Positions 2,672-36,723 of a stretch of 36,723 nucleotides of DNA are shown here, piece by piece. The DNA comes from a virus. A program made the translations under genes and the position numbers. Position 1 is the stretch's first letter, and every line of letters starts with the position of its first letter. The stretch spans positions 1-36,723 of the IMG/VR virus record IMGVR_UViG_3300048927_000772. One strand, 5' to 3'. Below the pieces are notes generated by a model. That model was not told where the DNA came from. It saw only the letters and a program-made list of their open reading frames with translations, and made no database searches.

Positions 2672-3535
2672 TTAAAATAATTTTTTTAATAAATATAAAA
2701 CTAGCCCGATAGGCTTTACATCATTCAGAGAACATTCAAATTCCTCGCCTTCATTATTTAATTTGATTTTATTGCCAGGTCGTTTTGACACATTATAAAA
2801 GTCAAGTGTTCCATCAATTTCAAGAATCCAAAACCCATTTGAGATTTCATTAATACTCGTGTCAACTATCCCACTTCTGTTACCACCAACGATCAATGAC
2901 AACTTGTTATTGGATTCAAATTCGGAAATGAACTCCTTAGGCAAGTTACTAAACCCATCTGCATAAAGCTTTCCTGCTTTTAACAATTTTTTCTCTATCG
3001 ATATATTTTTATTATCTTCTTTGTAATTAAATACTTTTGTTTTAGTACCTAACGCAAGCCAATCTAAGTTGGCCCCAGTTTCTAATGCACAAGCAATGAC
3101 GACATCACCTGGAAAATATTCTCGTCTTATCCAGGTGCTGATTGTACCTGTAGAAATCTCAAGGTACTCACTCAACTCTTTTTGAGTACTAAATCCGTAC
3201 GCATCCATGACTCGTTGTAAAACGGGCCTTCCACCAGTAGAAATCATACTTTTAATTAATTTCTGACCTGATTTTTCAGAAAACCGTGGGTTTGGTGCTA
3301 GCTGCTTAAAGTTTGCATTTGCATATCCACCATTAGCAAGCCATTCGAGATCACATCCTGTATCAAGAGCACATTTTACAAACGCACTTCCAGGAACGCT
3401 ATTACGCTGCACCCAATTACTGACGTTAGCCGCAGAAACGCCCAACTTTTCAGCTAGTTGCTTCTGTGTTTCAACCCCATAAGCAGTTGAAAGGCGTTCC
3501 AAGATCTCTGAAGAACTACCCTTGCTAAATTCCAT
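2672..3535 (-). CDS. cI: 186-type CI repressor with two tandem HTH domains
   Basis: 287 aa; about 95 residues longer than the roughly 190-aa 186 CI. Residues ~11-69 and ~105-163 are two copies of the Bac_phage_CI_repr HTH domain. Aligned by eye without gaps, about 27 of 59 positions are identical, with shared AYG..TQK.L and CAL.TG..L.WLA.G signatures. Residues ~180-287 match the 186 CI C-terminal oligomerisation domain (AGKLYADGF, then FWILEIDG, then PIGLVLYL). It should repress the early promoter to its right and maintain lysogeny. There is no RecA-cleavable peptidase domain, as in 186, so induction needs another factor. Divergent from cox, with a 115-bp operator region between. The duplicated DNA-binding domain is very unusual. 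Confidence 0.85.
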   Translation of the reverse strand: MEFSKGSSSEILERLSTAYGVETQKQLAEKLGVSAANVSNWVQRNSVPGSAFVKCALDTGCDLEWLANGGYANANFKQLAPNPRFSEKSGQKLIKSMISTGGRPVLQRVMDAYGFSTQKELSEYLEISTGTISTWIRREYFPGDVVIACALETGANLDWLALGTKTKVFNYKEDNKNISIEKKLLKAGKLYADGFSNLPKEFISEFESNNKLSLIVGGNRSGIVDTSINEISNGFWILEIDGTLDFYNVSKRPGNKIKLNNEGEEFECSLNDVKPIGLVLYLLKKLF

Positions 3536-3650
3536 AAAGCACCAAAATAAACAAATGTTATTTACAAAAACTCATTTGATGATTTAAGATGCATACATAC
3601 CACATGCAACACCATAGAACTCAAATGACTGATACAGGAGATTTTGCTTT
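3536..3650. promoter_or_regulatory. cI-cox intergenic control region, candidate operators
   Basis: This 115-bp divergent region should hold the lysogenic and early lytic promoters. Three copies of the hexamer CAAATG/CATTTG occur at 3552-3557, 3573-3578 and 3622-3627. The last two share the longer core TCAAATGA in opposite orientation; the first two form an inverted pair. These are candidate CI or Cox sites. Cox has a GGAG ribosome site at about -15. Promoter hexamers are only weak matches by eye, so I do not fix start points. Confidence 0.5.
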
Positions 3651-4067
3651 ATGTCTGAACAGAATGCAATTCAAGCGGCCACTGATAAGAAAACCGTTTC
3701 TAAGGAACTCTTAAACTCTGTAGTTTCCCAGCTCCTTCCAGCGTTAGAGTCAGCCCTATCTGCAACCATCGTGAACTCAATAAGTTTGCAACTGACTACC
3801 CTCGCTAACTCCCCGACAATTTCAAAGAAAGATTTTGCTTCAATCAACGGGATCAGCTCCGCAGTCCTCGAAAAGTGGATCGCGAATGGGGTTGTCCTGC
3901 TTGCACCGACGCCTTCAACCACAATAACCCAGCAACGAAAAAACCGAAAAACAGGTCAAATGCAAACTGTCGTTATGGAACGTCATGGCAATGCCCTGAT
4001 CAATCTTGAGGCCTGGCGTGAGAAAAACCGTCAGCAAGCCATCAAGTGCCGCTACATAAATCGTTGA
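3651..4067 (+). CDS. cox: Cox-family regulator/excisionase
   Basis: A 138-aa protein in the cox position, first gene of the rightward early operon opposite cI. The C-terminal half carries a short winged-helix-like segment, TISKKDFASINGISSAVLEK followed by WIANG, and then LINLEAWREKNRQQA. This fits the phage regulatory Cox family, whose members repress the lysogenic promoter and act as directionality factor for integrase. The N-terminal ~50 residues are an extra helical segment absent from the ~90-aa P2 Cox. Assignment rests on motif and position. Confidence 0.7.
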   Translation: MSEQNAIQAATDKKTVSKELLNSVVSQLLPALESALSATIVNSISLQLTTLANSPTISKKDFASINGISSAVLEKWIANGVVLLAPTPSTTITQQRKNRKTGQMQTVVMERHGNALINLEAWREKNRQQAIKCRYINR

Positions 4068-4098
4068 GTCAGATTATTCAAACTAGCAGGGACTAACA

Positions 4099-4605
4099 AT
4101 GTTTGATTATCGCGTTTCCAAACACGCTCACTTTGACGATGCATGCAAGGCATTTGTGAATCGTCATAACCTTACCGAACTTGCAGCGCTTATGGGCACT
4201 AAACCCCAAATCCTGCGCAATAAGCTTAACCCTGAGCAACCTCATAAACTTACCTGTGAGGAAGTTCTTTTAATCACTGATTTGACTGAGGATGCCGCCC
4301 TTCTCGATGGCATGCTGGCACAGATAAATTGCCTGCCGTCAGTTCCGGTCAATGAGATTGCTACTTCTAATCTTTCAACCTACGCACTACAAGCAACTGC
4401 CGCCGTTGGTTCTATTGCAGCTGATGCGGTGAAAGGGGGTACGGTCAGTTCTCAGCGTCGAACGTCCTTACTCGAAGGTGTTAATGCAGGTATTCGCCAT
4501 CTGTCACTGATCGGTTTAGTTGTTCAAGGCCGAGTGCAGGCATCCCCTGCCCTGGCATCTGCGGTTGGTGCTATTGCAAGCGTCACGACAAATGGGCTGA
4601 TGTGA
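4099..4605 (+). CDS. cII: CII-family regulatory protein
   Basis: 168 aa. The N-terminal half (ACKAFVNRHNLTELAALMGT, then LRNKLNPEQPHKLTCEEVLL) is the CII/CP76 HTH-type domain found in 186-like phages, where CII activates the establishment promoter for lysogeny. The C-terminal ~70 residues are Ala/Gly/Val-rich. It follows cox by 31 bases and its stop lies 2 bases before the next start, so it belongs to the early operon. Confidence 0.85.
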   Translation: MFDYRVSKHAHFDDACKAFVNRHNLTELAALMGTKPQILRNKLNPEQPHKLTCEEVLLITDLTEDAALLDGMLAQINCLPSVPVNEIATSNLSTYALQATAAVGSIAADAVKGGTVSSQRRTSLLEGVNAGIRHLSLIGLVVQGRVQASPALASAVGAIASVTTNGLM

Positions 4606-21615: not shown

Positions 21616-22506
21616 ATGGAAGAAAAGATAGAGAACTTAATAAAACTTCCAATTGCAGAGCGTTTAAAGTTCGCTAAGTTCATTGCTACGAATAGGAAAA
21701 AGTTCATCTCCTCACCTAAGGTTACAGCTCAGAAATCCACTTCCAGTAATAGCGATCTCATATTGGGACTCCTAAATGAGCGCTATATAACCAAAGCAAT
21801 AATTGAGCTTAGAGAGCTTTCTTACGATGAATTTTTGAAAGAAGAGTCAATTTTTAATTCTTTTATACTAAGAGAAATAAGCGAAAAATTTGATGCACCA
21901 AAGGAAAGGCTAGACTATTTTTGTCACCAATTAAATGGCATGGATAATACCAATTTCGATTCTTTAAGGGATAATGTCAGAGACATATTTGGCATGTACT
22001 CAGGCTATATAAGCCCATATGTATATCAATTATTCCTAAGTAACACCCAGTCTAGAAGATCAAGAGCAGGGAGTGTTTTTGAAGGAATAATTTACTTTCT
22101 GTATGAGCATTATGGTTATCCGTATGCTTCTCAGGCGAGTATAGGGAAAAAGCATTTTTCAGACTTAGGATTAGGCAAGGTAGTTGATTCAATACTTCCA
22201 AGCGTTGATGCTTTTAATCAGCGTAGGGACAAGACCATTGTAGGAACAATGAAAACAACTTTAAGAGAACGCTGGCAAGAAGTTGTGGAAGAAGTTGCAA
22301 GGTCAAACCTCCCGAATATTCACTTGCTTACGGTAGATGATACAATCTCTAGCGACAAAGCAGATCAGATGGCAAAACATAATATAGTTCTCGTTGTACG
22401 TAATGATATCAAAAGTCGTGATGAATTAAGACATCGAAGGAGCATAATAGATTTTGAAACATATTTCCTCGATGAATTACCTTCAACATTGAAATTTTGG
22501 AGCTAG
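21616..22506 (+). CDS. EcoRII-C-family restriction endonuclease, no adjacent methyltransferase
   Basis: 296 aa. The C-terminal half has the EcoRII-C pattern: RRSRAGSVFEG with E156, then VVDSILPSVDAF with D191, then GTMKTTLRERWQEVVEEV with K213, and finally HLLTVDDTISSDKADQM and NIVLVVRND. This is a PD-(D/E)xK nuclease with the KTT-x2-RWQ signature of the EcoRII/NgoMIV branch. The N-terminal ~130 residues are helical and unlike the EcoRII effector domain. Type II enzymes of this class normally pair with a neighbouring cytosine methyltransferase; none is present here, the only one being at 11444-12760. AT-rich, with its own promoter region, inserted between S and V. It probably restricts incoming DNA; the target and mode of self-protection are unknown. 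Confidence 0.82.
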   Translation: MEEKIENLIKLPIAERLKFAKFIATNRKKFISSPKVTAQKSTSSNSDLILGLLNERYITKAIIELRELSYDEFLKEESIFNSFILREISEKFDAPKERLDYFCHQLNGMDNTNFDSLRDNVRDIFGMYSGYISPYVYQLFLSNTQSRRSRAGSVFEGIIYFLYEHYGYPYASQASIGKKHFSDLGLGKVVDSILPSVDAFNQRRDKTIVGTMKTTLRERWQEVVEEVARSNLPNIHLLTVDDTISSDKADQMAKHNIVLVVRNDIKSRDELRHRRSIIDFETYFLDELPSTLKFWS

Positions 22507-35641: not shown

Positions 35642-35667
35642 TCACATTCTCAAAAAAGGAGGATGTG

Positions 35668-36723
35668 ATGAGTGTAAGAAAACTGTCTACCGGCAAATGG
35701 TTATGTGAGTGCTACCCGAACGGACGCGAGGGCAAGCGATGCCGCAGGCAGTTTGATTCCAAGGGTGAAGCCGTTTCCTTTGAGACTTACACCATGGAAC
35801 AGGCGAAAAACAAACCCTGGCTGGGTGAGAAGGAAGACCGGCGGAAGCTGAGCGAACTGGTCGATCTCTGGTACAGCCTGCATGGCTGCTCTCTGAATGA
35901 TAAAAAGGGACGGTTGGGAAAACTGAAGATTATCAGCGCGGGAATGGGTGACCCGATCGCCAGCACAATCACACCAAAGGACTGGGCGCACTATCGTGAT
36001 CAGCGGCTGCGCGGCGAGATTGATAATGGCTACAGTACCAGTCTGGCGACCCGTAAAGTTTCCACCGGCACGGTGAACTGTGAGCATGCTTTTCTGCGGG
36101 CGGTGTTCAATGAGCTGAAACGCCTGGGGGAATGGTCGTTACCTAACCCGCTGGAAAATATCCGTGAGTTTGATCAGCCGGAACGTGAAATGGCATGGCT
36201 GACTCAGGAACAAATTCTGCGGCTCATGGCCGCCTGCGAACATCATAGAAATGACGAATTAACGCTTATCGTTAAAGTCTGCCTTTCGACCGGCGCACGC
36301 TGGAACGAGGCGGCCAAAATCAAAAGCTCGCAGATTTCGCCCTACAAACTCACCTTCATTAACACCAAAGGTAAAAAGAACCGTACCGTTCCCCTTTCCC
36401 GCCCTTTGTATGACGAACTGATCGCCCGTAAAGGTGCGCCCTTCTCGCCCTGCTATAAACAGTTCTATCGGGTGATCAGGCTGGCCGGTATTGAGCTGCC
36501 AGAAGGACAGATGACGCACGTTCTGCGGCATACGTTCGCCAGTCATTTCATGATGGCCGGTGGCAATATTATCGTGCTGCAACGCATCCTCGGGCACTCC
36601 GATATCCGCGTCACGATGCGCTATGCGCATTTCGCTCCGGATCACCTGGAAGACGCTATTCACCTGAATCCGCTGGCTCAAATAGATGGCGACAAAGTGG
36701 CGACAGAAAGTCCAAATGAGTAG
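35668..36723 (+). CDS. int: P2-family tyrosine integrase
   Basis: 351 aa from the ATG at 35668, with a strong AGGAGG site; the GTG and ATG immediately upstream are less well placed. Catalytic residues: R211 (STGARWNEA), H284 and R287 (HVLRHTFASHF), H310 (LGHSD), nucleophile Y319 (MRYAHFAPDHL); K lies in KGKKNRTVPL. The N-terminal arm-binding region is VRKLSTGKWLCECYPNGREG. It integrates and excises the prophage, with Cox for excision. Its last codons contain arm-type repeats, and attR should follow directly after the stop. Unlike P2 and 186 it is beyond ogr and under its own promoter. Confidence 0.96.
   Translation: MSVRKLSTGKWLCECYPNGREGKRCRRQFDSKGEAVSFETYTMEQAKNKPWLGEKEDRRKLSELVDLWYSLHGCSLNDKKGRLGKLKIISAGMGDPIASTITPKDWAHYRDQRLRGEIDNGYSTSLATRKVSTGTVNCEHAFLRAVFNELKRLGEWSLPNPLENIREFDQPEREMAWLTQEQILRLMAACEHHRNDELTLIVKVCLSTGARWNEAAKIKSSQISPYKLTFINTKGKKNRTVPLSRPLYDELIARKGAPFSPCYKQFYRVIRLAGIELPEGQMTHVLRHTFASHFMMAGGNIIVLQRILGHSDIRVTMRYAHFAPDHLEDAIHLNPLAQIDGDKVATESPNE
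36687..36705 (+). other. candidate integrase arm-type repeat, right end
   Basis: TGGCGACA-AAG-TGGCGACA is a perfect 8-base direct repeat with an 11-base period, within the last codons of int (encoding GDKVAT). It matches the pair at 815-833 with two changes. Because codons overlap it, conservation could partly reflect the protein; the copy in non-coding DNA at the other end argues for a DNA role. Confidence 0.55.

Follow-up and report, generated by a model that had tools for sequence, protein, structure and literature searches.

The CI repressor encoded in the window (the whole 36,723-nucleotide stretch of viral DNA analysed here) carries two DNA-binding domains on a single chain and raises the question of what each of them reads. 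The gene, cI (positions 2672..3535, minus strand, with an ATG start), encodes a 186-type immunity repressor of 287 aa. Its domains, all on the minus strand, are a variable head, HTH1 (residues 11-69; 3329..3505), a near-constant head, HTH2 (residues 105-166; 3038..3223), and a C-terminal oligomerisation domain, the CTD (residues 180-279; 2699..2998). Searched by themselves, the N-terminal and the middle piece both match the Pfam family PF07022 (Phage_CI_repr; cut-off 22 bits), HTH1 with 70.9 bits (E 1e-19) and HTH2 with 91.4 bits (E 5e-26), and the C-terminal piece matches PF16452 (Phage_CI_C) with 67.5 bits, likewise significant in a separate search. The Pfam matches bear out the initial annotation, which had read two complete 186-CI-type HTHs ahead of one C-terminal domain. 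The recognition helices are those quoted there, SAANVSNWVQR in HTH1 (residues 34-44) and STGTISTWIRR in HTH2 (residues 128-138). A gap-free alignment of the two heads has 27 identities in 60 positions (45%), close to the earlier hand count of about 46% over 59, and its BLOSUM62 local score of 161 compares with a mean of 24 (sd 4.6, maximum 50) in 2000 shuffles.

The AlphaFold model of CI (one chain, from an input alignment of 50 sequences; mean pLDDT 86.8, pTM 0.46) predicts three confident modules at about residues 8-68, 90-162 and 177-284, separated by low-confidence, flexible linkers at 72-87 and 171-174. In structure comparisons the CTD resembles that of 186 CI (2fkd; Z 16.8, rmsd 1.8 over 110 residues), and HTH2 and the CTD together superpose on the complete 186 CI chain. 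Judged by the predicted model, HTH1 is the added part relative to 186 CI.

The architecture is neither an accident of assembly nor peculiar to one isolate, as the initial annotation had allowed for. It recurs in 134 of 170 CI ORFs drawn from IMG/VR, GTDB species genomes and named phages, which rules out an assembly artefact, and its hosts include Rahnella, Buttiauxella, Kosakonia, Pectobacterium, Dickeya, Lonsdalea, Pantoea and Enterobacter. A private duplication is ruled out by the named phages, in which the closest annotated CIs (Escherichia phage Midge, Klebsiella phage RCIP0057 and the Salmonella phages SI22, SW9, PSP3 and SEN1) are 42-47% identical over their full length. Within this set, the CIs of PSP3, SEN1, SW9 and SI22 (Eganvirus) and of Midge have the same length and domain order as that of the window, differing from it in HTH1 and pR; the double-HTH CI of PSP3 is annotated merely as CI. 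No match to the switch region was found in E. coli genomes. Among close pairs of relatives, dN/dS is 0.046 in HTH1 and 0.027 in HTH2, indicating that both heads are under strong purifying selection and that neither is decaying. Selection together with the co-variation described below thus speaks, on its own, against the earlier proviso that one head might be dead.

The surroundings of cI have the 186-type layout. Divergent from it lies a gene in the Cox/Apl position (3651..4067, plus strand), recognised by its position and by the annotation of relatives and lacking a Pfam match, which is followed by cII (Phage_CP76; 4099..4605, plus strand; PF06892, 144 bits). The predicted promoter pR (3561..3590, plus strand; -35 TTTACA at 3561-3566, -10 TAAGAT at 3585-3590) was called by eye and from the -35 block common to relatives, TGTAAA on the opposite strand. 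Four candidate operators are placed on this map. O1, AACAAATGTT (3550..3559), lies between the -35 of pR and cI, at a position common to relatives, and O2, CTCATTTGAT (3571..3580), lies between the -35 and the -10, 21 bp from O1. FL, AGTTTGCATTTGCATATC on the plus strand (3310..3327), falls inside cI at about codons 70-76, where the disordered linker that joins HTH1 to HTH2 begins, and FR, AGTCAGATTATTCAAACT on the plus strand (4067..4084), lies between cox and cII and begins at the cox stop codon. FL, FR, the prior occurrence of the architecture in PSP3 and its wide distribution were absent from the initial annotation.

The two heads evolve differently, as seen in their recognition helices and in column entropies. 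That of HTH2 is nearly constant (ISSGTISTWVRR and slight variants), whereas that of HTH1 is highly variable, with SAANVSNW, AKSNVASW, PANNISGW, HANNVSSW, PSNSVSTW and others. The Eganvirus group (Midge, PSP3, SI22) shows hardly any difference in HTH2, in the CTD or in the intergenic DNA distal to cI, while HTH1 and roughly 60 bp adjoining cI are replaced jointly.

This pattern extends to a double dissociation between heads and sites. In partial Mantel tests that take CTD, CII and Cox similarity into account (83 distinct loci), pR is correlated with HTH1 (r 0.61, p 0.001) and not with HTH2 (-0.06), whereas FR is correlated with HTH2 (r 0.50, p 0.001) and not with HTH1 (-0.15); the permutation p-values ignore shared ancestry and are hence too small, and a few misplaced -35 anchors (such as that of L042) add noise. 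The order along the DNA is cII, FR, cox, pR, HTH1, FL, HTH2, and the tie between FR and HTH2 runs contrary to linkage, since FR lies closer to HTH1. Pairs of loci tell the same story: in the 36 pairs with like HTH1 and unlike HTH2, pR is kept (71% identity, against 44% over all pairs) and FR is not (73% against 76%), and in the 205 pairs with like HTH2 and unlike HTH1, FR is kept (92%) and pR is not (37%). Heads with the helix AKSNVASW retain the pR pattern CGCTTT...GCG together with three different HTH2/FR types (L123, L022, L099). In the natural chimera L027 the HTH1 helix is near that of the window and pR is likewise similar, but its HTH2 helix and its FR (AATTCGAATAATCGAATT) are those of L046 and L087. 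In the Rahnella group (L026 and kin), a PSP3-like HTH2 helix, ISSGTISTW, occurs with a window-type FR; because this group breaks the pairing, the HTH2 helix alone is not a full code for FR. We interpret these comparisons, which draw on over 100 relatives, as an indication that HTH1 reads the fast-changing immunity operator at pR and HTH2 the unchanging distant sites. That one CI protein reads two operator types, a suggestion of the initial annotation, is in its form of one type per head well supported in silico, by this dissociation as well as by the constraint on FL and the HTH2-only repressors considered below.

FL and FR were recognised through their counterparts elsewhere. The record of coliphage 186 (NC_001317) annotates CI sites at pR, at FL (inside cI), at FR (which lies at the stop of apl, ahead of cII) and at pB; read from the record, the FL, FR and pB sequences are TTCACTTAATGTGAA-like and differ from pR. 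Palindromes like AACTTGCATTTGCAAGTT are found in three settings: upstream of cI in phages with an HTH2-like-only CI, at ogr promoters (PSP3 and Midge), and in the interval from cox to cII. A matrix built from such palindromes places one site in the double-HTH loci at +181 or +189 nt from the start of the HTH1 domain and a second between cox and cII. In 103 of the 112 distinct loci a site of at least 12 bits lies at the FL position; such sites also accumulate around FR, compared with 0.4 per kb overall. With FL sites left out of the training of the matrix, the mean FL score over 107 loci is 15.9 bits, against 5.7 under synonymous-codon resampling (sd of the mean 0.5), and the score of the window's own FL was matched in 4 of 300 resamplings. 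FL would be an operator written in the codons of a disordered linker, where constraint at the DNA level would explain the conserved protein motif ANAN.

With a matrix from relatives that excludes the window, FL (18.6 bits) is the top match in all 36.7 kb and FR (11.2 bits), a degenerate palindrome with 6 of 9 pairs, is the second best; this ranking speaks for conservation and specificity and not for independent origin, since relatives share the positions by descent. At the ogr promoter of the window, the held-out matrix found no HTH2 site (best score 2.0, rank 56); PSP3, Midge and SI22 have a CI-type site there. A window-wide search for the CTTGCANNTGCAAG palindrome with at most three mismatches gave no excess, because the PSP3-type consensus differs from that of the window and a class-specific matrix is required. 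FL by itself does not discriminate between the heads (partial r 0.19 with HTH1 and 0.22 with HTH2), and because it correlates weakly with both, its assignment to HTH2 rests on the motif.

At pR, candidate HTH1 sites flank the -35 about 21 bp apart, or two helical turns (CACAAATGTG and CACTTTCGTG in L026, CTCATTTGAT and AACAAATGTT in the window). Their palindromy across pR types is modest (p about 0.01 for O1 and about 0.05 for O2), so that the proposed pair has modest support as the HTH1 site at pR. A single large palindrome spanning the -35, with inverted-repeat covariation of its two sides, was marginal (p 0.043). A third, O2-like site near 3621-3635 (CTCAAATGACT) was dropped, as it is altered in the close relative L003.

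How the two heads came about is suggested by an HTH-domain tree (66 rows, 61 columns; only 11 of 63 branches starred). The HTH1 and the HTH2 copies of the main family are separated by a supported branch (99/96), and because they form separate groups the duplication looks old and single. The Felsduovirus CI L008 was duplicated independently, since both of its HTHs group with CIs of the same kind that have a single HTH (99/97); this locus (Klebsiella phage ST437-OXA245phi4.2 and kin) is without the FL/FR motif of the main double-HTH family. The HTH2-related single-HTH CIs L134-L151, from Citrobacter, Rahnella, Ewingella and others, fall inside the HTH2 group, a position that suggests either loss of HTH1 or the donor state. 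With so few branches starred, the order of events may have been duplication followed by loss, or gain of HTH1. These CIs have an HTH2-like helix, LSSGTISTW, and no HTH1, and many have an FL/FR-like palindrome upstream of cI; in one of them, L142, the pR and FR palindromes are unlike each other, as in 186.

We consider it probable that an ancient duplication of the DNA-binding domain of a 186-type CI was followed by a split of labour between the copies, with HTH1 on pR, HTH2 on FL and FR, and the CTD joining both. HTH1 dimers would sit on the short palindromes O1 and O2 flanking the -35, repress pR and set immunity specificity. HTH2 dimers would hold the 18-bp FL inside cI and FR between cox and cII and, in PSP3-like phages, also the site at the ogr promoter. 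The common CTD would oligomerise, most likely into a 186-like wheel, so that a single assembly contacting pR through HTH1 and FL and FR through HTH2 may loop the switch region. Physical binding, looping, the wheel and the setting of immunity by HTH1 are steps that we infer. The 14-mer wheel of 186 CI consists of seven dimers. The different repression geometry, or bridging of sites, raised in the initial annotation is possible; since the CTD matches the 186 CTD, which forms that wheel, a wheel of this kind carrying two heads on each spoke is, by analogy, the simplest guess. For a more specific version we see the chances as evenly balanced: a wheel with two unlike rims, in which HTH1 and pR form a swappable cassette that changes immunity while HTH2 stays fixed with FL and FR. 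If this holds, one oligomer loops two unlike classes of operator, and immunity can change while the distal control sites are left as they are.

Other explanations of the co-variation have to be weighed. The ties between heads and operators might reflect mosaic ancestry and linkage, with FL and FR being sites of CII, Cox or another factor. FR does correlate with CII similarity as well (r 0.52) and is close to pE, on which CII acts in 186. The correlation of FR with HTH2 nevertheless remains 0.50 when CII, Cox, the CTD, HTH1 and pR are all controlled for, similar motifs lie inside cI and, in HTH2-only phages, upstream of it, and 186 CI is annotated as binding FL and FR at the same places; we therefore regard this explanation as unlikely.

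It is quite improbable that both heads of one chain bind a composite, asymmetric operator at pR, to which FL and FR would be secondary. There is a precedent in mycobacteriophage TipsytheTRex, whose immunity repressor has two domains that bind DNA (PMC9283540). Against it, the HTH2 motif is missing at pR in all 112 loci, pR does not co-vary with HTH2, and FL and FR are palindromic, as is to be expected of sites for homodimers of one head. That HTH2 is a structural spacer or an oligomerisation element, leaving DNA binding to HTH1 only, would suit a recognition helix as constant as a structural part. It appears highly improbable given the low dN/dS of HTH2, its co-variation with a distant non-coding site, and the use of an HTH2-type domain as the sole HTH in L134-L151, with a similar motif upstream of cI.

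Compared with known systems, the double-HTH CI is, by its sequence features, a variant of the 186 type: the domains, the layout and the FL/FR features are shared, and what sets it apart is the second HTH and, in the window, the lack of an ogr site. Coliphage 186 (PDB 2fjr, 2fkd; NC_001317) has the same two Pfam families, with cI divergent from apl/cox and followed by cII, FL inside cI behind the HTH, and FR at the apl stop, just as FR of the window lies at the cox stop. A CI site at the B/ogr promoter is present in 186 and absent from the window; it is not known as a requirement of the family. Sites at FL, at FR and at the ogr promoter are present in PSP3, Midge and SI22. 186 CI makes use of distal sites, its CTD forming a wheel-like 14-mer (PMC8053113), and at FR it represses pE (PMC7708051). 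According to the title of Shearwin 2002, as given in PMC3991615, its single HTH reads two distinct sequences, whereas the two HTHs of the window CI appear to divide them. In TipsytheTRex a monomer places its two domains on one asymmetric site (PMC9283540), in contrast with the duplicated, like domains and separate palindromic candidate sites of the window CI. No paper describing a double-HTH 186-type CI was found in the open literature, and within that literature a sharing out of sites between two heads also appears to be new. While 186 CI is the textbook case of one HTH reading two sequences, the double-HTH family would represent its natural separation-of-function version, and its more than 80 distinct evolved head-operator sets, together with the natural chimeras, a code book. 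It opens to experiment the way in which a looping repressor handles unlike classes of sites, and how immunity can be switched by swapping one head and one promoter with the distal sites unchanged.

Several neighbouring regions deserve mention. Between 8597 and 12760 the prophage carries an LlaJI-like Type II restriction-modification module with an RE_LlaJI endonuclease (minus strand), an AAA_5 partner (minus strand) and a C5 cytosine methylase (plus strand). Amid the tail genes, one gene (21616-22506) encodes an EcoRII C-terminal endonuclease domain, with no adjoining methylase seen. At 936-2635, adjoining cI at the attachment end, a ParA/AAA_31 ATPase is followed by a RiboL-PSP-HEPN protein, a possible cargo pair. 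In PSP3, SEN1, SW9, SI22 and Midge, cI, a small gene and int follow one another in one orientation, an arrangement that the window lacks. Its P2-like integrase, recognised by eye, sits at the far end (35665-36723, plus strand) instead of behind cI as in 186 and PSP3, and the usual cI-int operon is thus broken. An integrase-like C-terminal fragment, likewise recognised by eye, lies at about 490-642 and is directly followed by a perfect tandem repeat of GGATTTA (646-703, 8.3 copies).
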